Shown here: in pieces, positions 10,711-54,241 of the stretch
How positions within the stretch are numbered: the stretch's first letter is position 1
Layout: every line of letters begins with the position of its first letter
Assembly: GCA_018457135.1 (NCBI GenBank)
Contig: JAGGDU010000219.1
Location: 1-64,000, forward strand
Source: Trichodesmium erythraeum GBRTRLIN201
GTDB lineage: Bacteria > Cyanobacteriota > Cyanobacteriia > Cyanobacteriales > Microcoleaceae
Direction of reading: 5' to 3'
DNA length: 64,000 nt
Position numbers and translations under genes: made by a program
Notes under the pieces: generated by a model
What the model was told of the DNA's origin: nothing
What the model saw: only the letters and a program-made list of their open reading frames with translations
The model's database searches: none

Positions 10711-11070
10711 TTGAATAAGGAAAAACTAATTTGGATAATTTCCTAGATTCATTTTTTTGAAGAGCTTAATTTTTTATTTGGGCAAGTCAGCCAATAAATT
10801 TTTATTTAAAAAGATTTAACTTAAAAAAAAGCTGATAACTCAATACTAATTGATATAAATAATTTTGAAATCTTAACTTTTGAGTTTCAACTTAAAATTA
10901 CCAAAGAAATAAAGTTAATCTTTTACTCTTTCAACAGAATAAAAAAAACGAAATTTGGGATTTTTAGGTCTCCCTATTACTGGAAGTACTGTTGCCCTAC
11001 GCGATATGAAAAGCCCAGTTCCTCCTCCAGGAAGCTAACCAATAAATGATAATTGATACTGATAACTGAA
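10711..11070. other. Region upstream of the reverse transcriptase, candidate site of retron RNA
   Basis: 360 bases, AT-rich at first. At 11019-11033 TTCCT and AGGAA can form a short hairpin. About 43 bases from about 10994 to 11050 resemble 19178-19222, in front of a methyltransferase gene. Heptad repeats (GATAACTGAA) run up to the start codon. Retrons carry their msr-msd RNA upstream of the RT, but I cannot identify convincing a1/a2 repeats or a long msd stem. Confidence 0.35.
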
Positions 11071-12519
11071 ATGACGGATCAGCCAAGCTCCCGCAAAGAA
11101 CTATATGCTCGTATTCGCGAAATAGGCCGGGAAGAATTTCTCCTCGAAGAAATGACTCGCTATGGCTTTTGGCCAGAAGGTGAAGAAATGCCTCTAGACC
11201 CTGTCGATGAAATTCAGCGTCGTGGGGAACTAGAACAACAACTGAAAAAACTTCGCCAAGAAAATGCCCACCTTTTTAACTTAAAGAAACTGGGTCAAGA
11301 AGCTTACAAACAAAGATTAGTTGAGTCACGTCGCAAACAACAAGAAACTAAAGAACTTCGGGAAAGAGAAAGACAAGAACGCGCTAAAGCATGGCAAGAA
11401 AAAAAAGAAAATGACATTATTTATCTAGGGGAAGAGATATCTGGAGGACTGAATAATGTTGAAGGGAATATCTTTCGTCTCGAAATTTACAACCTCCCTA
11501 TCCTTAATACTGCCCAAGATATAGCTAATGCTATGGATATTACTGTGGGAGAACTTAGGTTTCTGGCATTTTCCCGCCCTACTTCTACAGTTTCCCACTA
11601 CATCCGTTTCAAAATTCCTAAGAAAACAGGGGGAGAAAGGCAAATATCTGCTCCGATGCCACGTTTGAAAAATGTTCAAACTTGGATACTTGATAATATT
11701 CTCTGTAATGTTCCCCTCCATGAAGCAGTTCATGGTTTCCGTGCCGGACATTCTATTCTTACTAATGCTGAACCTCATGTGGCTAAAGATGTAATTATTA
11801 ATTTTGACCTAAAAAATTTTTTTCCCTCTATTTGTTACAAGCGTGTCAAAGGATTATTTTTTTCATTGGGTTACTCTGAAGCTGCTGCTACTATTTTTGC
11901 TCTTCTTTGTACTGAACCTAATGTCGTAGTAGTAGAGTTAGACGGACAGGTTTATTATGTAGCTCAGAGCGATCGCCACTTACCTCAAGGTTCTCCTGCT
12001 AGTCCAGCAATTACTAATATTATGTGTCGTCGCTTGGATAAACGTCTAAGTGAAATGGCAGCCAAACTTGATTTTGTTTATACTCGTTATGCTGATGACT
12101 TGACTTTTTCTAGTTCTGGAGATAGTCTCCGACACATTTGCAATGTTTTCCGACGTACTGAGTCTATTGTTAGTCATGAAGGGTTTACTGTAAATAGAGA
12201 AAAGACCAGACTTCTTCGGGGCAAGTCTAGTCAACTTGAAGTTACTGGTGTTGTGGTGAATGAATTTCCGAATATTTCTCGCAAAGAGTTGAAGAGGTTT
12301 CGGGCAACTTTATATCAGATAGAAAAGGACGGACCTCAAGGGAAAAGGTGGGGTCATAGTGATAATGTGATAGCTGCAATAGAAGGTTTTGCTAATTTTG
12401 TGGCGATGGTCAACCCGGAAAAAGGTAGGGAGTTAGTGAGGCGGGTGAAACAAATTAAGGAAAAATATACTGGGAGAAGGAGGCGATCGACGAAAATTTT
12501 GGAGCACGATGGTACTTAG
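11071..12519 (+). CDS. Retron-type reverse transcriptase with long N-terminal helical extension
   Basis: 482 residues from the ATG at 11071; a TTG 18 bases upstream lies in heptad repeats and is less likely. Residues 1 to about 120 are a charged helical or coiled-coil extension (KELYARIREIGREEF, then ELRERERQERAKAW). The RT domain follows: NAEPH at about 232 (retron-type NAxxH), FDLKNFFPSI, PQGSPASP, the catalytic YADD at 340-343, and a VTG triplet at 391-393 typical of retron RTs. PQGSPASP excludes a DGR RT, which would carry a different motif. The C-terminus is short, with no maturase or endonuclease domain. Retrons are anti-phage systems; no toxin partner is obvious next to it. Confidence 0.85.
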   Translation: MTDQPSSRKELYARIREIGREEFLLEEMTRYGFWPEGEEMPLDPVDEIQRRGELEQQLKKLRQENAHLFNLKKLGQEAYKQRLVESRRKQQETKELRERERQERAKAWQEKKENDIIYLGEEISGGLNNVEGNIFRLEIYNLPILNTAQDIANAMDITVGELRFLAFSRPTSTVSHYIRFKIPKKTGGERQISAPMPRLKNVQTWILDNILCNVPLHEAVHGFRAGHSILTNAEPHVAKDVIINFDLKNFFPSICYKRVKGLFFSLGYSEAAATIFALLCTEPNVVVVELDGQVYYVAQSDRHLPQGSPASPAITNIMCRRLDKRLSEMAAKLDFVYTRYADDLTFSSSGDSLRHICNVFRRTESIVSHEGFTVNREKTRLLRGKSSQLEVTGVVVNEFPNISRKELKRFRATLYQIEKDGPQGKRWGHSDNVIAAIEGFANFVAMVNPEKGRELVRRVKQIKEKYTGRRRRSTKILEHDGT

Positions 12520-20565: not shown

Positions 20566-22638
20566 TTAAAAATCATTATTATCTACCTCAAGTAATTCTG
20601 TATATTCAAACTCATTTGGACTACGTTTTACCAAAGGATAAGATTTACCACCTAACTCAATAGCATCTTCCTCACAATCTGATTTTGGAGAATTATAAGA
20701 AAGCACATATTCCCTGCCAATATAATCAGCCATTTCCTCAGCAACTTCACCTCGCCATTGAGTCTTAGTTACTAATACAACTAATTGATTTGCTAATTGA
20801 GGAATTATTTTAGCAATTTTTCGCCGATAAATCTCATCTAAACTCCCAAAAGGAGAATCCATTACAATAGGAAAAGTACTACTGTCAGGACCCATTAAAG
20901 TATTTTTTTTACTCCACTCTCTTACCTGATCAATAATGCTACCAATAAATGCCAAACTGAGGATTTGATTCTCTCCTGTAGAAGCAGCAACTAAGTCATT
21001 TTTACTACTAGTATTTTCTACTAAAGTTAACTCATAGTTTTTATTTAGCTGAGGAATATAAGGAGTAAAAGAAATTTCAGAAAATAACTCTTGTACCCGT
21101 TTTTCTAAAGAAATTCTAAATTGTTTTTCTAAACGTAAACGTACTTCGTTTAGCCTCTCAATAGCATCCTGAGTAGCAGCAATTCGTCTTTGAGATAAAA
21201 CTTGCCTTAACTCATTCATAGTTTGGCGATCGACTTGTTTATCTAAAACCTTAATTTCTTTATGTAAAGTTTCTAACTGTAGACTATTTGAACCAGTTTC
21301 TCTATTTAAATTTCCCACCTTAATTTCAATTTCATCTAACCTTTTTTGTAACTCCTGAATATCCTCATCTGGATAAGAGCGTAATTTTTTTTGAACTATT
21401 TCCAATTCATTTTCCACCCCTGAAAGCTGATAACGTAATTGTTCTATATTTCCTTGTTGTCTATCAACTTCATCCCAAAAATCTACAATTTGCTTATCAA
21501 CTTCATCCATTTGTACAGTCATTCTAATTGCAGTTTCTTCAACATCAGCAACCTCTACTTTTTGCATCCATTTTTCTACTAATTTTCTCCCATTAGAATC
21601 TATAGTTAATTCAGTGCCACAAATACAACGTTGTTTTTCTAATAACTGTTGAACAAACTGCCGATTAATTCCTGTAAGTAACTCACCTTTTTCCTTTAAA
21701 TGACTAAATAATTCTCGAAATTCTACTATTGCTTCTGATAAAAAAACCATATAACCACGAGTTGATATAGCTCTTTTTAAACTCTGATTTGCTTGTACTA
21801 TTTGTTCTTTTATTTCCCCAATACGAACCTTTAATTTGTCTCTTTGTTGAGGCAATCCTTCTGCACCTTTAAAATCTAACAAACGACTATTAATTTCTTT
21901 TTTAAATTTTCCATGATGTTGTAATTCTTGATCTATTTCTTGTTGGCGTTTTGATAATTTATAAATTTCCTGTTCAATTTTACTTTTTTCTTTCAAGAAC
22001 TTTTTAGTCTCTGGATTCCCAATCAATCTTAAATCAGTTTCTAGGGATTTTTTAGCTTCCCCTAAATGTCTAACAGAACGATTTAATACTTCAATTCCTA
22101 ATAATTCCTTAGTAGCTTCTGCAATTTCACTTTTTTGGTTATCCCTAACAATATATTCAATTCTTTCACCGTCAAAAAAGAAATATCGATGTAAACTTTC
22201 TGGCAGAATTCTACCAATAATATCATCAGGATGTTCTGGTGGTGGAGACCAACGTCCATCATCTCCAGCTATCTGCATATATAGCTCACTTTTGCCATGT
22301 TCAATTTTATTTTCTTCGTTTCTATAAGCTCGACATAAACGCTTTGCTTGATAACGTTTATGATTATGTTCAAATATAATTTCTACCCAACAAGCAATAG
22401 CTTTACCCGCTTTTGCTTCTGTAATTGCTCGTTTATTTACCAATTGAGTTTCTGCAGCAAAAGCTGCACTAAATTTCTCATAAAGTACCCAGGTAAAAGC
22501 ATTCATGATAGTAGTTTTACCGGCACCATTGTTGCCATGAATAATTGTCGTATTTTGTTTCCCTGAAGCACAAATTATTTCTGGAGTTTTGCCATAAAAC
22601 TGGCGAAAGTTACACAATATAATTGACACTAATTTCAT
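20566..22638 (-). CDS. DndD/Rad50-like SMC-type ATPase
   Basis: 690 residues. Walker A GNNGAGKTT is at 35-43 after FRQFYGK, the FFFDGERIE segment characteristic of DndD-type proteins near 155, then long coiled coils on both sides of a CICG (about 338) that could be a zinc-hook-like apex. The C-terminal ABC signature region and Walker B (PIVMDSPFGSLDE, about 590-605) complete the head. DndD provides ATPase function in DNA phosphorothioation; related ATPases serve other DNA-targeting defence systems. The start ATG overlaps the stop of the small upstream gene (ATGA type), implying translational coupling. Without dndB, C or E nearby, DndD-like is safer than DndD. Confidence 0.8.
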   Translation of the reverse strand: MKLVSIILCNFRQFYGKTPEIICASGKQNTTIIHGNNGAGKTTIMNAFTWVLYEKFSAAFAAETQLVNKRAITEAKAGKAIACWVEIIFEHNHKRYQAKRLCRAYRNEENKIEHGKSELYMQIAGDDGRWSPPPEHPDDIIGRILPESLHRYFFFDGERIEYIVRDNQKSEIAEATKELLGIEVLNRSVRHLGEAKKSLETDLRLIGNPETKKFLKEKSKIEQEIYKLSKRQQEIDQELQHHGKFKKEINSRLLDFKGAEGLPQQRDKLKVRIGEIKEQIVQANQSLKRAISTRGYMVFLSEAIVEFRELFSHLKEKGELLTGINRQFVQQLLEKQRCICGTELTIDSNGRKLVEKWMQKVEVADVEETAIRMTVQMDEVDKQIVDFWDEVDRQQGNIEQLRYQLSGVENELEIVQKKLRSYPDEDIQELQKRLDEIEIKVGNLNRETGSNSLQLETLHKEIKVLDKQVDRQTMNELRQVLSQRRIAATQDAIERLNEVRLRLEKQFRISLEKRVQELFSEISFTPYIPQLNKNYELTLVENTSSKNDLVAASTGENQILSLAFIGSIIDQVREWSKKNTLMGPDSSTFPIVMDSPFGSLDEIYRRKIAKIIPQLANQLVVLVTKTQWRGEVAEEMADYIGREYVLSYNSPKSDCEEDAIELGGKSYPLVKRSPNEFEYTELLEVDNNDF

Positions 22639-29944: not shown

Positions 29945-29985
29945 TTAATTGGTAATTTCAGTTATTAGTTATTAGTTATTAGTGA
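29945..29985. repeat. Short tandem repeat TTAGTTA
   Basis: Four near-perfect heptamers between tsaE and the FGE gene stop. Same unit as at 33478-33520 (opposite orientation) and 40192-40218. Confidence 0.8.
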
Positions 29986-30028
29986 AAAAAAAACAGGGTA
30001 AAGGGCAAAAGGGGGAAAGAGAAAAGGG

Positions 30029-32023
30029 TTAGAGAGTTATCCCGCCATCGCAGACAACACGAAAACCGATAAAGATGAAGTGGTCGTCGCGCCTAAGAGA
30101 GCCGCTGCGAAACGCAGAACGGCAATAACTAGGATAGGAGACCCAGGAACCGCCCCGTACTAAGGCCCCAATTTCGGTATAATATTTTTTATTACTAGCA
30201 ACCCAAGGACTTCCATATGTAGGAGCATAATGATAACCATCACGGGAACAATTATCAGCACACCATTCCCATACATTTCCGTGCATATCATATAATCCAA
30301 AAGCATTTGGTGGAAATTGACCTACAGGAGTAGTTTGGTTTCTATATTCTCCTTTGGGCCCATTCCCGTAATAGTTGCCATTATAGTTAACTAACTCAGA
30401 TGTTATAGTTTCTCCAAAGTAGAAAGGTGTAGTGGTTCCTGCACGGCAAGCATATTCCCACTCTGCTTCACTGGGTAGTCTATAATTCCTTCCTGTTAAT
30501 TTCGATAGTCTTTCACAGAACTCTACTGCTTGGTACCAGTTTACCTTCTCAACTGGTCTCTCCCATCTATCTATATCTTGATATGGTTCCTTAAAGTATG
30601 ATGGCTCTGGGTCTAGGTCTAAATTTACTTTCAAGTTTGTCTGAGAAGCGATCGCTCTCCACTGTCCTTGAGTAACCGGATATTTGCCCATAAAAAAGGG
30701 AGAGACAGTCACATCGTTTTGGGGGCGTTCATCATGATAGCTACCCTCTTCACTTTCAGGAGAACCCATGGTAAAGTTACCACCAGGAATAATTACCATT
30801 TCTAGTTCTAACTGTTGCGCAATAGTTTCCCTAAAGTATTGGGTAAGCTTAGTATCTTGCTTGATAATTTTTCCCCCTCCGTCAACTGTAGGTGTTGTAT
30901 ACTGAAAAACCTGAAAGTCTGAAGGAAAAGGAACCCATTCTCCCAAATTTTTGGGAGAAATAAACTTTTGTAGAATTTGCCTCTGCTGGTTATTCCGTTT
31001 GTTAAGTTCCCGACCGCGATCGCTCAAAAACTTCTGAAGTTGATTTATACTCAAACTCCCTTCACTCGACCGGAGTGCTTCGTGTAAAGCATAAGTAAAA
31101 CTTCCCTGCTGAAGTTGCTCAACTTCATTAGCTTCTTTACTCAAGAAAACTATCAGTTCCTGCCCATCTTTAACAGAAAAAGAAAAACCGGAAAAGAAAG
31201 AAATTTCACCAGAGATATAGTTAGTATCTAAGAACAAAATTACTTTTCCTGCACCAGAAGAAAATAATTTTTCTACAAGAGAATTAACAGAAATAGCAGT
31301 TGTTCTGAAGTCATCCTTTTGACTATCTGCTGGGATGAGATAGTCTACATCTTCTATACACTCACCGTAGCCACTAAAGAAAAACCAAAAATTATCTTCT
31401 GCTGAGAGGAAAGGTTTCTCAAATTTCTCTGCCAAAAACCTCTTAAGTCTCACTGAAATTACTTCTGTAAATAAATCAACCTTGCTAAAGTTTTTCTGCT
31501 CAAACCAATTTTTTATTACCTCTGCATCTTTAACAGCATATCTTAGAGATGGTAGATAATTATATTGGTTAATGCCCATAGCGATCGCGTGATTATTTCT
31601 AACCTTAACTCCAGCAATAATTGAGTCATCTTGTTTATCCGCAACTACAGCCACATTCTCCAAACGCAACCTTTTGAGAGGTACGCCCCAACCATTAACC
31701 AAAGTTACTCTAATCTCTCCTTCCATCTCCTTTTGAGCAGCAGTTAATAAAAATTTTGCCGGGCCGTAAGTCCCCCCAAAGCGATGTAAAACCACTGCAG
31801 GTTCGCCGATAATTTGAATCTTAAATAATGGAGTAGTATCTCCTTGACAATAGGTATCTACCCGAAAATAAATAGGATATTCTTCCTCCTCATAATTCCA
31901 TTTTTCAAAATCCTCAGTTTGTTTAATATCAATTTCCATCAAATAAGTTTTACCCACTTCTGCCGAATGGGGATAGTTAATTATAGGTTGAATTGATATA
32001 GGTAGTTGTTGAGTTTCATTCAT
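30029..32023 (-). CDS. Pseudo-orthocaspase fused to FGE/C-type-lectin domain
   Basis: 664 residues from the ATG at 32023 (MNETQQLP); a TTG eight codons upstream also opens the frame. Residues 1 to about 135 are a beta-rich domain of unknown type. A caspase-like p20 domain follows (about 140-355: HAIAMGINQYNYLPSLRYAVKDA, then FWFFFSGYGE). The catalytic His of SGHG is Tyr219 and the catalytic Cys of DxCxSG is Asn268 (DTNYISG), so it cannot be a protease. An FGE-sulfatase fold fills about 404-664 (MVIIPGGNFTMGSPES, FGLYDMHGNVWEWC, VRGGSWVSY) and ends in a candidate DGR variable region. Such YN pseudo-variants are known among cyanobacterial orthocaspases. A sensor or adaptor for the CHAT protease encoded just upstream is inference. 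Confidence 0.85.
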   Translation of the reverse strand: MNETQQLPISIQPIINYPHSAEVGKTYLMEIDIKQTEDFEKWNYEEEEYPIYFRVDTYCQGDTTPLFKIQIIGEPAVVLHRFGGTYGPAKFLLTAAQKEMEGEIRVTLVNGWGVPLKRLRLENVAVVADKQDDSIIAGVKVRNNHAIAMGINQYNYLPSLRYAVKDAEVIKNWFEQKNFSKVDLFTEVISVRLKRFLAEKFEKPFLSAEDNFWFFFSGYGECIEDVDYLIPADSQKDDFRTTAISVNSLVEKLFSSGAGKVILFLDTNYISGEISFFSGFSFSVKDGQELIVFLSKEANEVEQLQQGSFTYALHEALRSSEGSLSINQLQKFLSDRGRELNKRNNQQRQILQKFISPKNLGEWVPFPSDFQVFQYTTPTVDGGGKIIKQDTKLTQYFRETIAQQLELEMVIIPGGNFTMGSPESEEGSYHDERPQNDVTVSPFFMGKYPVTQGQWRAIASQTNLKVNLDLDPEPSYFKEPYQDIDRWERPVEKVNWYQAVEFCERLSKLTGRNYRLPSEAEWEYACRAGTTTPFYFGETITSELVNYNGNYYGNGPKGEYRNQTTPVGQFPPNAFGLYDMHGNVWEWCADNCSRDGYHYAPTYGSPWVASNKKYYTEIGALVRGGSWVSYPSYCRSAFRSGSLRRDDHFIFIGFRVVCDGGITL
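30031..30156 (-). other. Candidate DGR variable region of the pseudo-orthocaspase/FGE gene
   Basis: The final 126 bases are markedly GC-rich against the surrounding AT-rich gene. Constant codons G-G-S-W, Y-P, C-R-S and G-F-R match the FGE gene at the left edge of the window, and most residues between them differ. The coding end runs into CTGCGATGGCGGGATAA. No reverse transcriptase of DGR type or template repeat is found in the window. Confidence 0.65.
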
Positions 32024-32144
32024 ATTTTTGGGCAAGTCAGAATTCAAAAATGATAATAATTATGTGAGAATAACTATGTATATTATTAGTAAAAGTCATT
32101 AAAAAAACAGATCACAAATAACAGATAATTAAAAAAGCTGATAT

Positions 32145-33476
32145 TTAAATACCTTCTTTTTTCAAAAGCTCCAATTTAGCCATAGGGTTCCCATAATAAA
32201 TATACATAAAGGTATAAATAAATAAATATTTATTCTCATCATTACCTTTCTGACGCTGATATTCATCAGCAGCTTTCCGTCGGAGATTTTTTAAAATTGT
32301 AGCGACAGAAAGATGGGGATATTTTTGACATTCTTGAAAGAAATTACGAGAAATTTTAGCTGCATATGTATCATAAACTTCACATAATGTTCCTATGACT
32401 CCCTCAGCTCCTTTTTCTAAGAAAAATGTAGAAAACCCTATGGGATATTCTTGTCCTATTGTAGGGTTAGTATCAATAATTTTTAAAGTATCATTTTGTT
32501 GTAAACGTCCAGAGTTACAAGCATTCATAAAAACAATTGAACCTTTTTTGAAAAAATTAAAATCATATTCATATAAATCATATACAGATATTTGTTGTGT
32601 CTCATCTTTTTCTCCTAGTTTACTTTGAGATAAATCCTTATCAAAAAAACCATGACTGGCGATAAAAACTAAACTAACCTCTGAATTAACTTGATCTAAA
32701 TTAACTTTATCTAAATCATCAAAAAAATTTCGTACATTGTCATAAATAGTCGAATGAAAAACTTCTATAATCTCCTTTTCTTGCTCAACTTCGGGTAAAT
32801 CTTTAGTATTTAGATAAGCTACTATTTTACCGCAACATTTTTTTTCTGTAACTTCTAAATTAATGAAGCCATTAACGTTATCTAAATCTTCTGGATTTGT
32901 AATATCTTGCCATCTGACTGTAACGAGAGAAGCTCCTAAATAATCATTATTTTTCAATTCCAACATTTCCCAAGGAATTTCAAAAGTTGTACGGTCATTA
33001 ATAATTAAATAAGAGAAATTATGTTGTCTTTCTTGTAATTTTTCTTGTAATTTCAGTAGCCATCCCCTAATTTTTTTAGCCTGAGAATTTTTCTGAGAAA
33101 ACATCCGCATTATACCGGGAGTTTCTTCTAGATTTAGATTGATAATGTTATCAAAAGATATTCTTGGAGCTGGAGTAGGGTCAGTATGTAATTGTTCGCC
33201 TATTTTTAACGAGCCGTGACGGCAGCGAATAATTATATTATCATTATTATTATTAGGAGATTCTACTTCTAAAAAAGCAAATTTCCAATCAAATTTTCCA
33301 TCTAATTTAATGCCAAAACTCTCAGAAAGTGAGCTTTTATTATTATCAGTCAACCCTTCAATTTTTTCCAGCTCTAATTCTTGATCATTGAGTAATTTAT
33401 CCGGAGATTCTCCTTGGGCAAATAATCTACTTGGATAAGGACTTTGTTGATTTTTTAGCTTTTGAATTGGATTCAT
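32145..33476 (-). CDS. CHAT-domain (caspase-like) protease
   Basis: 443 residues. The N-terminal half (1 to about 210) is of unknown function with an acidic, Asn-rich start. The C-terminal CHAT domain has an intact dyad: His275 in FIASHGFF and Cys320 in FMNACNSG, with the family features AYLNT and a late FSTFFLEKGAEGVIGTL. CHAT proteases act as effectors in bacterial conflict and cell-death systems, and some are activated by a partner protein. It is 122 bp upstream of the pseudo-orthocaspase/FGE gene on the same strand, so the active protease and its dead relative are probably co-expressed. Confidence 0.87.
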   Translation of the reverse strand: MNPIQKLKNQQSPYPSRLFAQGESPDKLLNDQELELEKIEGLTDNNKSSLSESFGIKLDGKFDWKFAFLEVESPNNNNDNIIIRCRHGSLKIGEQLHTDPTPAPRISFDNIINLNLEETPGIMRMFSQKNSQAKKIRGWLLKLQEKLQERQHNFSYLIINDRTTFEIPWEMLELKNNDYLGASLVTVRWQDITNPEDLDNVNGFINLEVTEKKCCGKIVAYLNTKDLPEVEQEKEIIEVFHSTIYDNVRNFFDDLDKVNLDQVNSEVSLVFIASHGFFDKDLSQSKLGEKDETQQISVYDLYEYDFNFFKKGSIVFMNACNSGRLQQNDTLKIIDTNPTIGQEYPIGFSTFFLEKGAEGVIGTLCEVYDTYAAKISRNFFQECQKYPHLSVATILKNLRRKAADEYQRQKGNDENKYLFIYTFMYIYYGNPMAKLELLKKEGI

Positions 33477-33743: not shown

Positions 33744-35696
33744 TTAATTGTGACTTGTAATTTCCCAATTTTCCACAGGTGGAATAGACAAAATTTTTGC
33801 TCCTAATGCTTTCGCTAATAGTAATGGTAAATCAGGATATTGTTTAGATTGAGGATTAAGAAATATAGTTTCTAAATTACCTAAATTACTAATTTTTCGA
33901 GCAACTTCCAAAGCATCTTCTACCCCTTTTTTCCCCACAGGAGGCTTAATTTTTCCTACATGACTTGCTTCCAAAGGAACATTACCTCTACCATCACTAA
34001 CTACCACTAATACCGCTTTTTGTACAGTATTTTTCCCATGTTGTAAAGCATGACGAAGAGTTTTCAAAGCCAAGTCAAAGCCATGTGCCAAAGGTGTAGC
34101 TTTACCTTTTTTAGTCTTTTCCAAGTCTAGTCCCATGGCAATTGTAGGTACCAGAATATTTTGACCAGATATTTTTTTAGCCCGTAATTCTACAGGATTA
34201 ATTGTAACATTTGACTGGTTATTATCTAATACGATAGAGTTCGGAGCAATACCAACTTGAATTAAACCAACACTTGCTCTTTGGCTGTAAGCCCAACTAA
34301 GATAGGGCAATAATTTTTCTTCCCATTGACAATATTCTAAACAAGTATAATCTAGTAAAAGCATGAACATCTGTTCCGCAACGGAAGCGCGACGATAACG
34401 ATATAAATCAGAGGGCAATATTTTCAATTTATGATAATTATTACCCTGTTTTTTCTGACGAATTTTCTGAAATTTAGCTGCTTCTAATAGACTCCTAACT
34501 ATAGCTAAATCATTAGCGTTAGTAGTTTTTTCTAGCCCAAGAATTGTGCCACAATGAATAGTTTTAGATTGAGAAATACGGGTAGGTAATTTAAGGGAAT
34601 CTATTTCTCTTTCTAATGAAGTAGTATCTTCTATATAAGGATTTTCTAAAAGTGTAATTTCTGGCAAATCAGTATCTGGAAAATAATTAGATACCTGTGA
34701 TTGATAAACAGGAATTTCTGGTGGATTATTTGATAAAGATTCGTCTTTAATTTCTGATAATTCGGGTGATCTTCGTGGTTCAAAATCATTATCTTCTGTC
34801 TCTGGTTGTGGATTGAAACTCTTAAAATCAATAGAATTATTAATATTATTTCTTTCTAACTTCAATCCCATAATTTTAGCTACTTTATCCACATGCTTAA
34901 CTGTGACTGAATCTGCTGCTTCTAATTGAGCATAGGTACTTGCAAAACGAGCCAAAGCAATTTCTCGCCGATGATAAATATTTGACTCATAATTATAATT
35001 TAAAATTGTCTCCAAAGCTGATGGTGTCATACTTGGTAAAGAGGAACGAATTTGTCTCAACCATTCCTGTAATTCTGGTTCAATTTTCCTTTCTTCAAAC
35101 AATAATTTTTGTGGTTTTTCCGGACTATTTAATAACTTTTGAATCTGAGTTACTCTCTTATCATTATTCTCAATTTGTTGTATATTGAGACGCAGGGCAA
35201 ACCTATCTAATAAATGAGGTGAAATCTTACCAATTTCCTCATTCTGACTCGAACAACCAACTAACCAACAAAAATTAGGTTGCCAATATTTATGTTGTCC
35301 GTGACGCTCTAAATGTGCGACATCTGCTCCCATCAATACAACACAAGCCCTCATAGCTGCTAAACTTAATTTAGTCAGATCTGGAATAATTACTAACTTA
35401 ATTTCATTCGTATTATCTGCACTACTAAATAATCCAAATTGCCAATTAAAAGCTTGTTTTTCCAACTCATCCCCTAGCCCAACTTGCCCCCATAAATTAT
35501 CCTCTGATTCAAAAGTTCCCAACTTCAACGGAACAACTTTTTCACATTCTGTTGTTACTTTAAGTAGAGACACTAAAATACCAGCAACTTGCTGCAAATT
35601 ATTAATAGAAATATCAAACAGCAAAATACTGCGTAACTTGGAATTAAGCGCTACACAACAAAGAGATTTCATTAAAGAGCTTTGAATATTTACCAT
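33744..35696 (-). CDS. ChlD-like VWA-domain protein of a conflict system
   Basis: 650 residues laid out like magnesium chelatase subunit D: a degenerate AAA+ domain without Walker A (about 1-210, with DLTKLSLAAMRA and LLDRFALRL), an AAA lid (about 215-275), an acidic, Pro-rich linker (about 290-370) and a VWA domain (about 440-640, VVVSDGRGN, VARKISNLG). The MIDAS DxSxS is degenerate (LDYTCLE near 447), while a Thr (ATPLAHG) and the Asp of SDGR remain. It is too divergent to be the biosynthetic ChlD. Its place between a ChlI-like ATPase remnant and a CHAT gene points to a VWA-MoxR-type signalling role. Confidence 0.75.
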   Translation of the reverse strand: MVNIQSSLMKSLCCVALNSKLRSILLFDISINNLQQVAGILVSLLKVTTECEKVVPLKLGTFESEDNLWGQVGLGDELEKQAFNWQFGLFSSADNTNEIKLVIIPDLTKLSLAAMRACVVLMGADVAHLERHGQHKYWQPNFCWLVGCSSQNEEIGKISPHLLDRFALRLNIQQIENNDKRVTQIQKLLNSPEKPQKLLFEERKIEPELQEWLRQIRSSLPSMTPSALETILNYNYESNIYHRREIALARFASTYAQLEAADSVTVKHVDKVAKIMGLKLERNNINNSIDFKSFNPQPETEDNDFEPRRSPELSEIKDESLSNNPPEIPVYQSQVSNYFPDTDLPEITLLENPYIEDTTSLEREIDSLKLPTRISQSKTIHCGTILGLEKTTNANDLAIVRSLLEAAKFQKIRQKKQGNNYHKLKILPSDLYRYRRASVAEQMFMLLLDYTCLEYCQWEEKLLPYLSWAYSQRASVGLIQVGIAPNSIVLDNNQSNVTINPVELRAKKISGQNILVPTIAMGLDLEKTKKGKATPLAHGFDLALKTLRHALQHGKNTVQKAVLVVVSDGRGNVPLEASHVGKIKPPVGKKGVEDALEVARKISNLGNLETIFLNPQSKQYPDLPLLLAKALGAKILSIPPVENWEITSHN

Positions 35697-36055: not shown

Positions 36056-37003
36056 TTATGTTAATATATTCTTTACCTTATTCTCATCTTCATCAGTCCA
36101 AGGAGGTTGGGTACTTTGGAGAAATTCAGGGCGACGGTGTTGCAAAACTAATTGAGCGACTGCTTGAATATGCTCAATATTTACCTGTTGAAAACCATGC
36201 AAAGCAGCATAGGCACGGGAAGCTAGGGCAATTACATAATCTGCTCTGTTTCCTTCTGCCTGAAAAGCCGCCGTCAACTCTACACAATATTCGATCGTAT
36301 CCTTTGGTATTTTTATCTGACGAACATTATTTTTTGCATCCTCTAACTTTTGTTTGTATGCTTGATCCTTTTCCCTAGCTTTATCAATATATTCAGAAGA
36401 TGTACCTTGAGAAAAGTCGAACATTGCCTGATCCCATTCCATAACTGTTTGTAAAATTTTCATCCGTTCTTGGCGGTCAGTTTGTGCCTTGATATCCACC
36501 ATCAAGCCAAACCTATCTAATAACTGAGGACGCAAACCCCCCTCCTCAGGGTTCATGGTACTTACCAAAGTAAACGATACTGCCTCTTCCATTCGTTTTC
36601 CTTCTCGCTGCACCACTAAAACTCCCGTAGAAGTAACATCAAGAATAATATTGACAATATGATCGTCAAGTAAATTCACTTCATCAATATAAAGTAACTT
36701 ATCATTAGCTTCTTTGAGCAAACCATCTTGCCATTTTGCTTCACTCTCCATTAACTGACTAATTTCCCAACCTCCCATCACCCTGTCTTCTGTAGCATTT
36801 ATTGGTAAAGTTACAGGTAATTTTTGTCCATCATTACCGAAAACGCTCTCACTGCAGTTGACTTACCTGTTCCTCGCTATCCGCTTAACAAAACTCCCCC
36901 AATACGAGGAACAATATAAGCTAATTCTAATGTAAGTTTTAACTTTTCCTGACCAACAAGCAAAGTGTAAGGTAATATTTTTTTTTGCTATGGGATGTTC
37001 CAT
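36056..37003 (-). pseudogene. ChlI/MoxR-like AAA+ ATPase, disrupted
   Basis: The 3' three quarters is a clean AAA+ sequence: LPINATEDRV, LLYIDEVNLLDDHIVNIIL (Walker B), STMNPEEGGLRPQLLDRFGLMVDI and a lid. The 5' part, from an ATG at 37003, reads across three lesions: an indel at a run of nine A on the coding strand (36978-36986), a TAG at 36877-36879 inside Walker A (SG, stop, RGTGKST), and a frameshift at 36840-36843 after AVRAF. Ignoring these the product would be a full-length ChlI-type ATPase. The Walker A stop means no active ATPase from this locus unless the base calls are wrong. The nine-A run alone could be passed by slippage. Confidence 0.8.
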
Positions 37004-37188: not shown

Positions 37189-37542
37189 TTACTCTTTTAA
37201 TTTCCATTTCATGGTAACTTCCATTTGCGCTTCTGCACCTGCTTTTGCCAACATTGGTACACCTGCCTCAGAATCTAAAGTAATTGACAATTTCATTTCA
37301 AATTCATTAGGTTTAATATCATCGCTCATTTGGTTGACACTTTCTATGACTTTAGCAGCACAATTACGAGTTAAAGCCAAACCATCCCCAAATAAATCCT
37401 TTGCTGCCGCAATAACTTCTTTTCCCGAATTACCTCGAGACAAAGGCTTAGGATTATTTTGAACTTTAAAATCATCATTAACCTGAATATTGATTTCAAT
37501 TTTTTCATTGCCAAGTTGGCTAATGGTTTTAACAATTGCCAC
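37189..37542 (-). CDS. Trypco1-like (CU044_2847 family) small protein
   Basis: 117 residues from a GTG at 37542 with a good GGAGG site upstream. It is a small beta-rich protein: VKTISQLGNEKIEINIQVND, a helix around IAAAKDLFGDGLALTRNCAAKV, then a beta strand with KLSITLDSEAGVPMLAKAG and a basic end. This is the pattern of the trypsin-co-occurring domain 1 family as I recall it, described as a component of NTPase-based conflict systems in multicellular bacteria. It heads the minus-strand series leading to the ChlI-like, ChlD-like, CHAT and pseudo-caspase genes. Family assignment needs a profile search. Confidence 0.7.
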   Translation of the reverse strand: MAIVKTISQLGNEKIEINIQVNDDFKVQNNPKPLSRGNSGKEVIAAAKDLFGDGLALTRNCAAKVIESVNQMSDDIKPNEFEMKLSITLDSEAGVPMLAKAGAEAQMEVTMKWKLKE

Positions 37543-47435: not shown

Positions 47436-50400
47436 ATGTCAGAGGATAAAGTATTGGAGGAATTAGAAAAAGCTTATAAATTATTTAGGCAAGGTAAATT
47501 TAAGGAAGCAGTGCAGTTATATAAAGAATTAATCACTAATAACCCTGACCTAGCCAGGAGTGGAATCAATATTAACCTAGCACATAGTATTATTTTATCT
47601 ACAGATTGGTCTGATGTTTCACAAAACTTACCACCTGGTATAAATTATCCAGAATCATCAGGCTGGATAAATTCCTTAATGACTGGTTTACCTATCAATT
47701 ATGATTCAAAACCTATCCCCTGGTACACCTATCCAGCTATAGAGTTTATAGAAAATAAGATAGCATCAGATTTTCAGGTTTTTGAATATGGAAGCGGGCA
47801 ATCAACATTGTGGTGGGCTGAAAGAACATTAAAGGTAATTTCGATTGAAAGTAATCGAAACTGGTTTTCTGATCTTCAGGAAAAAATCCCCAATAATGTA
47901 GAACTAAGCCTTAGTGAGAATGAAGAAGAATATGCAGCCAACATCAATAGATATCAAAATAACTACTTTGATGTAATTGTTATAGATGGTATTAATAGAA
48001 ATAGGTGTGTAGAATTAAGTTTAAGCAAGCTCAAAGAAACAGGATTTATTATTTTTGACAATACAGATGATTATCAGTACGACTTGGGTGTAAGACTTTT
48101 AGAATTGAAAGGATATAAAAGAATAGATTTCTATGGAATGATTCCAGGGTACACTTACAAAAATTGTACGTCAGTTTTTTTTAAAGATAGTAAAGTTTTA
48201 GATAGGGGAGGATTACCTAGCGAGAAAGAGTCTTGCTTAGGACTTTCTTGTTTTCAAGTAACTAGCCCTAGATCTAAAAATAATTGTATGTTAAAAGAAT
48301 CTAATATTGCTGAATGTCAAGCTAAGTTTAATCTTAGTTATCACGTTCCTTTTGCCCGTATATGTCAAGATTTAGTAGGTTTTGAAGGTAAAGATGTTTT
48401 AGAAGTAGGTGGGAGTTTACCACCAGAATTTGTTTTTGATTATCTTCATGTTAAGTCTTGGTCAGCAATAGAAACTCCAGATTATGAAGAATCCCTCAAG
48501 GAAGCAGGAGGACTATCTCATACAGGAACAATTATTCCTAATATTAAAGATACTTCTAATTTAGGTTTTGATAATAGAAAACTAGAAAAATATAATTTCT
48601 TCTTAGAAAATATAGAAAATCTTCCCGAGGAATATTACGGAAAGTACGATCTAATTTTTTCTATTGCAACTTTCGAGCATATTCATAAATTACCAGCTGC
48701 TTTAGATAAAATGTTTCTGGCTTTAAAACCAGGAGGCAAATTATTCTCTATGTTTTCGCCTATTTGGTCAGCCTACGATGGGCATTATTTGCCAAAAATA
48801 ACTGACCAAGCAGGCAAAGTTTTTAACTTTGGCAATTCGCCTATCCCACCTTGGGGACATTTGTTAATGAAGCCTGATGAACTATGTCATTATTTATATC
48901 AATATACTGATCAAGAAACAGCAGAATTGATGGTTGATTATGTTTATAATTCACCTCATATTAATAGGTATTTTACAGAAGATTATCTAGAAATTGTTAA
49001 AAGGAGTAAATTTCAAAGTAAGCATATAGAATTAATATTTGAAAATCCTATTGATGAGAAAACTCAAGAGAGTTTAGAACAGTTATATCCAAATAAAAGA
49101 GAATTTTCCAACAATGGAATATTAGTTGTACTTGAAAAAAATAGTTCGGAAGATAATATGATGACTGAGCAAATAACTATGATACCAGCTTACCAAAGTA
49201 CCAAACAAGAACTCGCATCTAAAGTGTTCGACTCAATAACCAGTCCGAAAGTTAAAGAAAGAGTTTACTCTGTTATTAGCCTTTTAACTCAGGATCGTTG
49301 GTTATCCAATGATTTGAGAAATTATTCAAGTTCATCTGCTCAAACACAATCAAAATGGTTTGATTTAATTTCGTTTTTAAACTGGTGTGGGCATAATTTT
49401 AAACCTAAGAATTATCTAGAAGTAGGTGTGCGTCGGGGGCGTTCTATGGCCCAGGTTTTAGTAGAATCCCCCGATACTAATGCTTATGGTTTTGATATGT
49501 GGATACCTGGGTATGCTGCTGAAGATAATCCCGGTCCTGAGTTTGTACGTTCAGAGTTAGAAAAGTTGGGAATCAAAAAACAGCCAACTTTAATTAGGGG
49601 TGACTCTCACGAAATGCTCCCATCTTTTTTTGCTAATTCAGATAATCCCCAAGAATTTGACCTAATTAATATAGATGGAGACCATACTTACTCCGGTGCC
49701 AAAATGGATTTGGATATCGCCTTTACTCATTTGGCATCTGGTGGAGTATTGGTTTTCGATGACATTGCTCACCATGCTCATCCTGAGTTGGGTGTTTTGT
49801 GGAACGAGTACAAGAGCAAATATCAAGATTATTTATTTATTGATGATCACTATGCCACAGGAACAGGAGTAGCTTTTAAGCCTCCTTTTTCTAAGTTATC
49901 ACAAATACTTGCAACGTTACCCATTCATTTCTTTACCATTGTCCTTAACGGCCAACCATTTATTCGCTACCACATCGACATTTTCAAGCAACTTCCCTTT
50001 AAGTGGCATTGGCATATTATTGAAGGTGTAGCTGACTTAAAACACGACACTGGTTGGAGCTTGCAGTTAGGGGGAAAAATAACCGATGAAATTCATAAAC
50101 AAGGTCGCAGCAAAGATGGTACATCGGAATATCTAGACGAACTTGCAGCCAAATACCCAGAAAATATAACTCTTTACCGCAAACCAGAAGGAGAATTTTG
50201 GGATGGCAAACGGGAAATGGTTAACGCGCCTTTGAGAAACATAAAAGAAGAATGTTTGCTGTGGCAGGTAGATGTTGATGAAATCTGGACTTTAGAACAG
50301 ATTTGTAATAGTCGGAAATTGTTTATTAAAAATCCAGAGAAAACGGCGGCGTTTTATTGGTGTTGGTATTTTGTGGGAGAAAATCTGGTTATTAGTAGCC

Positions 50401-52748
50401 GCAACTGCTACACACAAAATCCCAAACAAGATTGGTTACGCACTTGGAGGTTTAAACCAGGATACCTTTGGGCAGCCCACGAACCCCCAGTATTAGTAGA
50501 AAATTTGCCAGATGATCAACAAAAAAATATTGCTGCTATTAATCCTTTTATGCACGCAGAAACAGAAAAAGAAGGTTTAATTTTCCAACACTTTGCTTAT
50601 GTCACCCCAGAACAACTAAGCTTTAAAGAACAATACTATGGTTATAAGAATGCCGTCAGTCAATGGCAAACCTTACAGTCACAAACTAAGTTTCCAGTAT
50701 ATCTGCGGGATTATTTTGCCTGGGTAGGAGATAACACGATGGTCGATAGCACTGAGTCATTAGGCATAGTTCCACTGGTGCAAAAAGATGTAACTGGAGA
50801 TAATTGGAAATTTTTGCAACCAGAATATTTACAACAACCAGTGAAGAGGGAAAGGCGATCGCCCACTATTCTTATTGATGGTGTATTTTTCCAACTTTAT
50901 AGTACGGGTATTGCTCGTGTGTGGCGCTCTGTCTTAGCAGAATGGGCTAAAACTGAATTTGCTAATCACATAATATTACTTGATAGAGCAAATACAGCAA
51001 AAGTACCAGGCATCAGATATAGAGCTTTACCAGCATATAGCTACAACAACACCGATGCCGACAAGCAAATACTCCAACAAGTCTGCGACGAAGAGGGAGC
51101 AGATTTATTCATCTCCACTTACTACACAACTCCCATATCAACACCCTCAGTATTTATGGCTTATGATATGATTCCGGAAGTATTGGGGGCAAATTTCAAC
51201 GAACCAATGTGGCGAGAAAAACATCACGCTATTGGTCATGCTTCCTCCTACATTTCCATATCAGAAAGTACTGCTCGGGATTTGGTTAAGTTTTTCCCAG
51301 ATATTACACCAGATGATGTGACTGTAGCTCATTGCGGTGTTGCTCCCACTTTTACTCCAGCTACAACAGCAGAAATAAGTGTGTTTAAATATAAATACGG
51401 CATCAGCAAACCTTATTTTCTTTTGGTAGGTGCTGGAAGTAACTATAAAAACGCGATTTTATTTTTCCGAGCCTTTGCCCAACTCCACAGCAAACAAGGT
51501 TTTGAAATAGTCTGCACAGGTAGCGGTGTCACCCTAGCTAACGAATACAGACAATATGCCTCTGGCAGTGTCGTACATTCACTCATACTCAGCGATGAAG
51601 AATTGAAAGTTGCTTATTCTGGTGCAATAGCTTTAGTTTATCCTTCTTTATACGAAGGTTTTGGAATGCCTGTTGCCGAAGCATTAGCTTGTGCTTGCCC
51701 GGTGATTACTTGTGCCAATGCTTCTATTCCTGAAGTTGTCGGGGAAGCTGCTATATATGTTGATGGCAATGACGTAGATGGTTTGACGGATGCCCTGTGT
51801 GAAGTGCAAAAGCCAAAAGTGCGTAATTCTTTAATTGCTACTGGTTTAGAACAAGCGAAGAAATTCTCTTGGGGTAAAATGGCTGATATTATGAGTATTG
51901 CTTTAATGAAAGCAACTTTAGGGCATTTAAATCTCAGGGATATTAATTTAATTATTTTCCCAGACTGGACGCAACCAGAAGAAACAGTGGGATGGGAATT
52001 CCAAGAGGTAATCAAAAATCTGGTGACTCATCCAGATAGAGCTAAGATGACTTTATTAATAGATAACAGCAATATTACTGCTGAAGATGCAGATTTAATT
52101 TTATCTAGCGTGGCAATGAACTTGTTAATGGAGGAAGAATTAGAGGTAGATGAGGGACCAGAAATTGTTTTAGTTGGGGAGTTGAGTCAAGTGCAGTGGT
52201 CTGCTTTAATACCTCAGTTACAAGGTAGGATTAAATTGGAACATGAGAATGGGGAAGCGATCGCTGTTGTTGATAAAGATCTCCCTGTTTATGAGATTCA
52301 AGGTATAGAGCGATCGCGATCTCTTAGGCTAGAAACTGGTAGATGGGAACTTTTTAAACTAAGCGAAATTAATTTTGTTATATTCCCAGACTGGTCCCAA
52401 CCAGAAGAAACAGTGGGATTGGAATTAAAAGAGGTAATCAAAAATCTGGTGACTCATCCAGATAGAGGTAAGATGACTTTATTAGTAGATAACAGCAATA
52501 TTACTGCTGAAGATGCAGATTTAATTTTATCTAGCGTGGCAATGAACTTGTTAATGGAGGAAGAATTAGAGGTAGATGAGGGACCAGAAATTGTTTTAGT
52601 TGGGGAGTTGAGTCAAGTGCAGTGGTCTGCTTTAATACCTCAGTTGCAAGGTAGGATTAAATTGGAACATGAGAATGGGGAAGCGATCGCTTCTGCAAAA
52701 GCAAGTCATATTACTGCTCTAAGTCTGAATGATTTAGCTAATAGTTAA
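47436..52748 (+). CDS. Giant multidomain methyltransferase/glycosyltransferase
   Basis: 1770 residues. In order: a short TPR-like start (1-60); methyltransferase 1 (about 70-255, FEYGSGQSTLWWAE); methyltransferase 2 (about 270-560, DVLEVGGSLPPEF, DLIFSIATFEHIH); methyltransferase 3 (about 570-820, YLEVGVRRGRSMAQ, LINIDGDHTYSGAK); a GT2-like domain with a DVDE motif (about 825-1110); a GT4 domain (about 1145-1495, LLVGAGSNYKN, PSLYEGFGMPVAEALACACPVI); and two copies of a module of about 110 residues (from 1503 and 1643, IIFPDWTQPEE). It probably builds and methylates a surface or protein glycan. The FkbM gene 35 bp downstream shares the end module and forms an operon with it. Confidence 0.88.
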   Translation: MSEDKVLEELEKAYKLFRQGKFKEAVQLYKELITNNPDLARSGININLAHSIILSTDWSDVSQNLPPGINYPESSGWINSLMTGLPINYDSKPIPWYTYPAIEFIENKIASDFQVFEYGSGQSTLWWAERTLKVISIESNRNWFSDLQEKIPNNVELSLSENEEEYAANINRYQNNYFDVIVIDGINRNRCVELSLSKLKETGFIIFDNTDDYQYDLGVRLLELKGYKRIDFYGMIPGYTYKNCTSVFFKDSKVLDRGGLPSEKESCLGLSCFQVTSPRSKNNCMLKESNIAECQAKFNLSYHVPFARICQDLVGFEGKDVLEVGGSLPPEFVFDYLHVKSWSAIETPDYEESLKEAGGLSHTGTIIPNIKDTSNLGFDNRKLEKYNFFLENIENLPEEYYGKYDLIFSIATFEHIHKLPAALDKMFLALKPGGKLFSMFSPIWSAYDGHYLPKITDQAGKVFNFGNSPIPPWGHLLMKPDELCHYLYQYTDQETAELMVDYVYNSPHINRYFTEDYLEIVKRSKFQSKHIELIFENPIDEKTQESLEQLYPNKREFSNNGILVVLEKNSSEDNMMTEQITMIPAYQSTKQELASKVFDSITSPKVKERVYSVISLLTQDRWLSNDLRNYSSSSAQTQSKWFDLISFLNWCGHNFKPKNYLEVGVRRGRSMAQVLVESPDTNAYGFDMWIPGYAAEDNPGPEFVRSELEKLGIKKQPTLIRGDSHEMLPSFFANSDNPQEFDLINIDGDHTYSGAKMDLDIAFTHLASGGVLVFDDIAHHAHPELGVLWNEYKSKYQDYLFIDDHYATGTGVAFKPPFSKLSQILATLPIHFFTIVLNGQPFIRYHIDIFKQLPFKWHWHIIEGVADLKHDTGWSLQLGGKITDEIHKQGRSKDGTSEYLDELAAKYPENITLYRKPEGEFWDGKREMVNAPLRNIKEECLLWQVDVDEIWTLEQICNSRKLFIKNPEKTAAFYWCWYFVGENLVISSRNCYTQNPKQDWLRTWRFKPGYLWAAHEPPVLVENLPDDQQKNIAAINPFMHAETEKEGLIFQHFAYVTPEQLSFKEQYYGYKNAVSQWQTLQSQTKFPVYLRDYFAWVGDNTMVDSTESLGIVPLVQKDVTGDNWKFLQPEYLQQPVKRERRSPTILIDGVFFQLYSTGIARVWRSVLAEWAKTEFANHIILLDRANTAKVPGIRYRALPAYSYNNTDADKQILQQVCDEEGADLFISTYYTTPISTPSVFMAYDMIPEVLGANFNEPMWREKHHAIGHASSYISISESTARDLVKFFPDITPDDVTVAHCGVAPTFTPATTAEISVFKYKYGISKPYFLLVGAGSNYKNAILFFRAFAQLHSKQGFEIVCTGSGVTLANEYRQYASGSVVHSLILSDEELKVAYSGAIALVYPSLYEGFGMPVAEALACACPVITCANASIPEVVGEAAIYVDGNDVDGLTDALCEVQKPKVRNSLIATGLEQAKKFSWGKMADIMSIALMKATLGHLNLRDINLIIFPDWTQPEETVGWEFQEVIKNLVTHPDRAKMTLLIDNSNITAEDADLILSSVAMNLLMEEELEVDEGPEIVLVGELSQVQWSALIPQLQGRIKLEHENGEAIAVVDKDLPVYEIQGIERSRSLRLETGRWELFKLSEINFVIFPDWSQPEETVGLELKEVIKNLVTHPDRGKMTLLVDNSNITAEDADLILSSVAMNLLMEEELEVDEGPEIVLVGELSQVQWSALIPQLQGRIKLEHENGEAIASAKASHITALSLNDLANS

Positions 52749-54152
52749 AGTAAAAAAACTGAACAAAAGAGGAAATTTTAAGGATGCCAATATTTGTTGA
52801 TAACTTAAAGAAAAATAGAAAAATAGATGATATTCATTTAACCATAGCCATTGTAGGTTCTAGAAAGCTTGAACAGTTTGAAGAAGAATATATCAATCAA
52901 GGATGGGGTTTAATGTCCCCCAATCTGACCATATACGGTTTTGATGCTGATCAAGACGCGTGCAAGAAAATGAACACAAAGCTGCAAGAACAACAAATCA
53001 GCCATCAAGAAAAACACATACCCTTGGCTCTTTGGGATTCTGTAGAAACTGCTACTTTGCACATTACTAAATTCCCTGCTTGTAGTTCTTTGTACCCTCC
53101 AAGTCAGTCATATATTGATCGCTTTATTGGAAATTCCCCACTTATGGAATTAGCATCCACCCAAGAGATTCAAACAACAACTTTAGATGATTTTTGTCAT
53201 TCTGAGGAAATCAGTGAAATTGATTTTATACAAATTGATACTCAAGGAGCAGAACTCAAAATTTTAGAAGGTGCTAAGGAAATTTTAAAAAGTGTTTTGT
53301 CACTAAATGTAGAGGTAGAATTTACGAGTCTCTATGATAATCAACCTTTGTTTGGGGATGTTGACTTGTATCTGAGGAAAAAAGGCTTTACCCTATTTGA
53401 TTTTGGAACTTTGTATCGAGATTCCCGTCGCAGAAGTTCCATATGTTCTCAAGAGCATCCCGGTCAATTAATATGGACAGATGCTTTTTACTTTCAGGAT
53501 TTGATCCAAAAGTCATCCGCTCAGGAATCGTGTAATAAGACTCCAGAAAAGCTGTTAAAGTTAGCTTGTATTGCCGATATCCTAAAATTTCCTGACGTAG
53601 CAATGGAAGCCCTGGAGTGCTTAACTTGGAAGTATGGTGATAATCCTAAGTACAATTTTGCCAACAACATAGCAGAGGTTTTATCCCAATTCCACAATTT
53701 GGCTAAGGAGGGAGTGGGCGCTTTACCAGCGATGGAAAGAATCAAAGGTTATCTCAATAGTAAGTATTTTTTAAATCAGCCAGTGGTTAAAGAAGACGAG
53801 CTACATTCAAGGTTAAAATTCAGACAATTTAATCTGATAATTTTCCCAGACTGGACGCAACCAGAAGAAACAGTGGGATTAGAATTACAAAAAGTAATTA
53901 AAAGTCTAGTGACTCATCCAGATAGAGCTAAGATGACTTTATTAATAGATAACAGCAATATTACTGCTGAAGATGCAGATTTAATTTTATCTAGCGTGGC
54001 AATGAACTTGTTAATGGAGGAAGAATTAGAGGTAGATGAGGGACCAGAAATTGTTTTAGTTGGGGAGTTGAGTCAAGTGCAGTGGTCTGCTTTAATACCT
54101 CAGTTGCAAAGTAGGATTAAATTGGAACATGAGAATGGGGAAGCGATCGCTC
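51943..54152 (+). repeat. Three near-identical copies of a module of about 320 bp in two genes
   Basis: Copies lie at about 51943-52265 and 52367-52690 in the giant gene and at about 53827-54152 in the FkbM gene. Long stretches, for example from AGATGACTTTATTA through GGGGAAGCGATCGCT, differ by only a few bases, although the sequences between copies are unrelated. This implies recent duplication or gene conversion. The domain function is unknown. Confidence 0.9.
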
Positions 54153-54241
54153 AAATTAAAGCAGAAAATATTCCTATTATTGAACTCAATAACTTGGCAA
54201 GAAAAAGTTTTTGTATTCATAAAACCGTTGATTTCACCTGA
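52784..54241 (+). CDS. FkbM-family methyltransferase with shared C-terminal module
   Basis: 485 residues with a good GAGGAAATTTTAAGG region before the ATG. Residues 1 to about 240 are an FkbM-type methyltransferase: IYGFDADQDACKKM, TTTLDDFCHSEEISEIDFIQIDTQGAELKILEGAKE, NVEVEFTSLY. A linker of about 100 residues follows, then the repeated module (about 348-460) also found twice in the preceding gene. FkbM enzymes O-methylate sugars or other hydroxyls. The 35-bp gap to the giant gene indicates co-transcription and work on the same glycan. Confidence 0.9.
   Translation: MPIFVDNLKKNRKIDDIHLTIAIVGSRKLEQFEEEYINQGWGLMSPNLTIYGFDADQDACKKMNTKLQEQQISHQEKHIPLALWDSVETATLHITKFPACSSLYPPSQSYIDRFIGNSPLMELASTQEIQTTTLDDFCHSEEISEIDFIQIDTQGAELKILEGAKEILKSVLSLNVEVEFTSLYDNQPLFGDVDLYLRKKGFTLFDFGTLYRDSRRRSSICSQEHPGQLIWTDAFYFQDLIQKSSAQESCNKTPEKLLKLACIADILKFPDVAMEALECLTWKYGDNPKYNFANNIAEVLSQFHNLAKEGVGALPAMERIKGYLNSKYFLNQPVVKEDELHSRLKFRQFNLIIFPDWTQPEETVGLELQKVIKSLVTHPDRAKMTLLIDNSNITAEDADLILSSVAMNLLMEEELEVDEGPEIVLVGELSQVQWSALIPQLQSRIKLEHENGEAIAQIKAENIPIIELNNLARKSFCIHKTVDFT

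Follow-up and report, generated by a model that had tools for sequence, protein, structure and literature searches.

Introduction

The 3′ end of one AT-rich gene of Trichodesmium erythraeum GBRTRLIN201 is unusually rich in GC, which raises two questions: which process wrote this gene end, and is the process still at work on it? The stretch of DNA analysed here (64,000 nucleotides, hereafter the window) comes from contig C219 of a draft assembly of 7.22 Mb in 241 contigs with a completeness estimate of 99.97%. From T. erythraeum IMS101, two DGR RTs (Tery_1035 and Tery_1728) and 18 TR/VR loci have been described, at least 11 of them hypervariable at sea (PMC8867640, PMC7517822). Publications on DGR targets of this genus thus exist, and the variable repeat (VR) of the window is a further one; degenerate DGR loci, too, are known in Thiohalocapsa.

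The gene end had been interpreted in the initial annotation as a DGR variable region. This interpretation is supported by paralogous VRs, by the adenine pattern of a subset of six VRs, by hypervariation between orthologues and by loci with DGR RT, Avd and template in the same genome; ongoing diversification of the window copy is unsupported. The stretch is very probably the VR of a remote DGR target that was written from a template of the type termed V1 below, is now retired and belongs to a presumed sensor in a conflict-system complex. According to this explanation, an RT-Avd complex would have copied a V1-type template RNA and placed random bases opposite the adenines, after which the resulting cDNA would have replaced the 3′ end of the target gene. 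This would have diversified an FGE/C-type-lectin domain on the face presumed to bind ligand; the domain is fused to a caspase-like domain lacking catalytic residues. The features of the window are collected in Table 1.

Table 1. Positions in the window of the variable repeats, the target gene and the genes adjoining it.
Feature	Position	Strand	Remarks
V1-family DGR variable repeat (VR)	30026..30157	-	CGGGGC...TAACCC ends (minus strand); ~130 nt; 78–84% identity to 10 other V1 gene ends
Stop codon inside the V1 VR	30029-30031	-	
Hypervariable core of the V1 VR	30069-30142	-	
Pyrimidine-rich tract	29982..30028	-	Directly 3′ of the VR; common to V1 VRs
Hairpin site of clean VRs	29958..29981	-	CTAATAA-type short repeats instead; no hairpin in this copy
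Target gene, caspase-like + C-terminal FGE/C-type-lectin domain	30029..32047	-	Start codon uncertain
Caspase-like domain of target	31025-31591	-	Pfam PF00656, E=2e-8
FGE/C-type-lectin domain of target	30053-30802	-	Pfam PF03781, E=4e-57
CHAT-domain gene adjoining target	32145..33476	-	PF12770, E=6e-16
Chelatase-subunit-D-like gene (AAA + presumed vWA region)	33744..35696	-	TIGR02442, E=9e-29; TIGR02031, E=1e-26
MoxR/ChlI-like ATPase gene, broken	36056..36972	-	TAG at 36877-36879 in Walker A region + frameshift upstream of 36811 (three-frame translation)
Trypco1 (CU044_2847 family) adaptor gene	37189..37542	-	PF19493, E=1e-17; NF041216
Second VR, family V2, end of FGE gene 2-1870	1742..1857	+	Templated by C237; without perfect hairpin

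The Target Gene and Its Neighbourhood

The GC-rich gene end claimed initially is confirmed: the GC content at 30031-30156 is 54.8%, against 38.0% in the remaining CDS and 34.7% in the whole window, and equally GC-rich stretches of 126 nt make up only 0.05% of all such stretches in the window. The fixed GGSW, P, CRS and GFR residues, with substituted codons between them, are likewise present in the sequence as described. An alignment by codons with the FGE gene at 2-1870 also gives the claimed picture, in which the fixed positions are kept and most of the intervening codons differ. However, the gene chosen for this comparison belongs to a separate family (V2), the template of which lies on contig C237. 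Profile matches and PDB relatives show that FGE/PvdO-type domains generally have GGSW...P..CRS..GFR as their C-terminal frame. Because this frame is common across the FGE family, the motif says little for a DGR at the protein level, and it is the nucleotide pattern that carries the case.

The FGE-sulfatase domain of the target reaches residue 665 of 672, and FGE genes are heavily duplicated in the host genome. An AlphaFold model of this domain, made with nine relatives, had a mean pLDDT of 47 and was set aside. The caspase-like domain has SGYG at 31361-31375 and LDTNYISG at 31208-31231, and is therefore without catalytic His and Cys; the motifs expected at those sites in an orthocaspase are SGHG and one resembling DACHSG. 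The catalytic His-Cys dyad of orthocaspases is thus absent from the target. TvpA of Treponema denticola presumably has no caspase-like domain, unlike the window target. It resembles the target in being an FGE-type C-type-lectin DGR target (PDB 2y3c, E=7e-22) and is one of its PDB relatives, together with PvdO (5hha).

The genes for Trypco1, a MoxR-like ATPase, a chelatase-D-like protein, CHAT and caspase/FGE stand side by side, an arrangement resembling the MoxR-vWA ternary conflict systems (PMC7159879), which in cyanobacteria are often tied to DGRs (PMC7159879, PMC10907252). Two points set the window apart from those systems: its ATPase gene is broken (the orthologue in G005 is open), and the fusion partner of its FGE domain is a caspase-like domain instead of vWA. 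The chelatase-I/D-like pair was recognized by profile and may be of the chelatase rather than the MoxR type. By analogy with these systems, the target is likely to be the variable sensor of a complex for containment or cell suicide.

Several other features of the window were recorded. The RT at 11053-12519 (+; PADLOC RT_XIII, E=4e-190; NCBIfam Ec67/St85-like) is probably a type XIII retron; as a candidate for the DGR RT it was rejected, being of the retron type with QGSPASP in place of the SQ motif. A DndD/PbeC-like ATPase of a phosphorothioation-type defence system is encoded at 20566-22638 (-; PADLOC PbeC, E=0), and two large genes at 47436-54241 (+) have near-identical C-terminal repeats in common (…IIFPDWTQPEETVG…LEHENGEAIA). 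An Rfam scan of the window returned one tRNA and nothing else.

The V1 Family of Variable Repeats

The window VR is one of about 12 related V1 repeats in the genome; its relatives are ten gene ends at the identity listed in Table 1 and one more distant. Six V1 VRs have the same coding sequence outside 29 columns, every one of which is the first or second position of an AAC/AAT-type codon. No third-position change occurs in the core of these six VRs, and one extra variable column adjoins the stop codon. The base mix at the variable columns is 46% A, the remainder being T, G and C. An AAC/AAT template copied with random bases placed opposite its adenines gives this pattern; ordinary codon drift would give the opposite. 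The C237 template allows an independent comparison: 23 of its 26 adenine columns coincide with variable columns of V1, versus 6 of 58 others (p=4e-12).

Two V1 genes were also compared with their orthologues in G001, another Trichodesmium, using adenine columns that had been defined from other genomes. The upstream regions differ by 3.7% and 5.2%, the adenine columns by 59% and 73%, and the other VR positions by 9% and 7%. As the flanks of the orthologues differ by 4–5% and the adenine columns by 59–73%, V1 rewriting must have continued after speciation. A G005/G006 pair with decayed VRs serves as a natural negative control (0/22 changes at adenine columns). The clean V1 VRs of the host genome carry common fixed bases that are absent from relatives, which fits overwriting from one template that had changed in this lineage. 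The expected concentration of differences at template adenines therefore holds at the level of the family; the window copy has 20 of its 22 mismatches at adenines when judged against a V1 template that is itself inferred, in part from the same V1 family.

Two V1 VRs are irregular in other ways. The copy at C21:12362-12493 (L147) has an in-frame TAG in the hypervariable core and hence encodes a truncated target protein. The second V1 VR on C216 (L149) has one extra codon in the hypervariable loop, and its reading frame runs beyond the usual VR stop codon.

The V2 Family and the DGR Cassettes of the Genome

On C237, Avd and a template repeat (C237:1665-1777, minus strand) accompany an RT that has LPIGNLTSQ/YVDD. 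Ten VRs align to this template without gaps, and 146 of their 163 mismatches fall at template adenines (p=7e-87); in six V2 VRs, two of which are identical to each other, the mismatches lie solely at adenines. The V2 VR of gene 2-1870 has 17 mismatches to the template, 13 of them at adenines. The N-terminus of the protein encoded by this gene (+) contains near-identical tandem copies of a segment of about 90 residues with helix-turn-helix/sigma-r4-like matches.

Another locus with Avd, SQ-type RT and template is found on C32, with a VR that has 15 mismatches, 12 of which lie at adenines. The C237 and C32 templates are followed by a structured RNA that is conserved throughout the order; of its 40 predicted pairs, 23 have changes on both sides with the pairing kept. 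The contig end of C32 (L036) holds another copy of this template-linked RNA at 4520-4561, which is truncated and has no template before it.

The initial annotation had called for a DGR-type RT with the SQ motif in the genome. Two such RTs exist, but both are interrupted, and neither was shown to serve V1. The RT at C237 has an in-frame TAA at 2842-2844 and that at C32 is frameshifted, either of which may be a sequencing error. RTs of relatives in the genus, from fragmented assemblies, are also partial or broken; those outside the genus are open over 361–389 codons. The system is similar to that of IMS101 in the genus, the two DGR RTs, the remote targets and the FGE/C-type-lectin nature of these targets, including orthocaspase fusions. 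It differs from IMS101 in that both RTs are interrupted in the host assembly and that the V1 family is without a template.

The Missing V1 Template

A template repeat identical to the window VR save at adenines, as the initial annotation envisaged, is not present in the assembly. BLAST with a template-like query, a pattern search allowing up to 3 mismatches and a covariance model of the template-linked RNA all failed to find a V1 template there; the covariance model matches only C237 and C32. Among the matches examined in 58 relatives no V1 template was seen either. The exact template pattern gave zero matches among genome contigs, and a looser template-like pattern gave matches only in Trichodesmium MAGs among genome contigs and none in viral contigs.

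The nearest cassette remains to the V1 family were found on C171 at about 75.1-75.6 kb, between two V1 genes. They consist of the N-terminal 40 residues of an Avd, with 65% identity to that of C32, a piece of the RT C-terminus and a template-RNA tail; the remainder is missing, and this V1 cassette is a fossil. The counterpart contig in G005 keeps the RNA (E=2e-31) with no template before it, and ends there. We infer that the window VR was written from a V1 template of which none is left in the assembly; it is apparently an orphan VR, written by a DGR and not part of a working one. For Thiohalocapsa PB-PSB1, too, more than one class of DGR has been reported, along with degenerate loci, diversification of VRs in trans and a link to MoxR ternary conflict systems (PMC10907252). 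However, each class of PB-PSB1 keeps one complete locus (PMC10907252), unlike V1 in the host, for which no complete locus was found.

The Downstream Hairpin and the Probable Retirement of Variable Repeats

Behind clean VRs come a pyrimidine tract and, beyond it, about 60 nt downstream of the VR, a GC hairpin with a stem of 5–10 bp that starts 39–65 nt on and a loop of 3–4 nt. The stem sequence varies between VRs (CCCGC, CTCGCC, TCCGCC, TTCCCGC), while the pairing is kept. A hairpin at that place occurs in none of 33 other window genes and at 0.4% of random positions. Its interpretation as a general terminator was rejected on these counts; it is specific to VR genes, in which it may nevertheless act as a terminator.

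In the Bordetella phage BPP-1, target recognition is driven by hairpin/cruciform structure and not by sequence (PMC3240598), and deletion of the hairpin severely, though not completely, impairs homing (PMC12875486). The Trichodesmium hairpin is similar in that a GC stem lies behind the VR, is absent at the template and is conserved in structure rather than in sequence (PMC3240598, PMC12875486). Unlike that of BPP-1, it starts about 40–65 nt behind the VR, after the pyrimidine tract, has loops of 3–4 nt and has a role that is predicted. The downstream hairpin is a DGR feature defined in BPP-1 and is not universal.

A total of 48 VRs were compared. The hairpin is present in 33 (median 0 off-template substitutions) and absent from 15 (median 6), with a Fisher p=9e-6 that is optimistic, as the VRs are related by descent. 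Within the host genome alone, a rank test of hairpin against off-template decay gave p=3e-4. Age is a confounder in these comparisons, since older duplicates may lose the hairpin and the clean VR together simply by being older. The open-licence literature searched yielded no earlier study that relates the hairpin to VR decay across many natural VRs.

Neither of the two window VRs has a perfect hairpin. Because three VRs of the host genome that lack a perfect hairpin are still clean, its absence is not proof of retirement. Outside the hypervariable columns, the V1 VR of the window also has six departures from the clean host consensus, several of which are common to VRs on C21 and C171. These non-adenine departures, the loss of the hairpin as the likely landing signal and the broken ATPase gene adjoining suggest that this VR is retired and probably not rewritten now. 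The V2 VR also looks retired, as it has no perfect hairpin.

As a tentative generalization, for which the chances seem slightly less than even, a gene end would be marked as rewritable by a pyrimidine tract together with a GC hairpin, free in its sequence and located about 60 nt past the VR, and loss of the hairpin would freeze the VR. Whole VR families could then lose their template while the targets persist as frozen sensors, thereby forming a natural mutant series for DGR targeting in Trichodesmium.

Alternative Explanations

The window VR could still be active, with a cognate V1 template and an intact RT that exist in the organism, are missing from the draft assembly and rewrite the VR in trans. 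The six V1 VRs of the host without off-template decay imply that the V1 template worked very recently, and an assembly in many contigs, one of which (C32) ends in a second partial copy of the template RNA, could have missed a locus. However, the completeness estimate is high, three types of search find no V1 template, and the window copy itself has six departures in fixed columns and no hairpin. Continued activity is therefore considered unlikely.

Alternatively, the dozen repeats might shuffle sequence among themselves by VR-to-VR gene conversion, in the manner of silent cassettes, with no template involved. This would agree with the many homologous copies, the template that was not found and the species-specific fixed bases common to the host VRs. 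Yet the variable columns have no shared blocks beyond those seen after shuffling the columns (p=0.78 for the longest run and p=0.77 for the best agreement), and conversion leaves unexplained why changes occur at adenine columns only, which makes it highly improbable. A reading with no retroelement, in which the end of a duplicated FGE gene changed by ordinary divergence or by positive selection, could draw on the general nature of the C-terminal motif and the heavy duplication of FGE genes, but is scarcely credible given six VRs with 29 variable first and second positions and no third-position change in the core, orthologues with 59–73% change at adenine columns between flanks about 95% identical, and the contradicting V2 mismatches (146/163 at template adenines).

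Significance

A DGR-written VR that is probably retired bears on how DGR targets are chosen and how long they last. The signal that makes a cellular gene a DGR target is poorly known outside the Bordetella phage model. The set of 48 VRs, which differ both in the presence of the hairpin and in off-template decay, makes this question of targeting directly testable. Variation of DGR targets at sea is already established for the genus, and its DGR target genes may outlive their templates.
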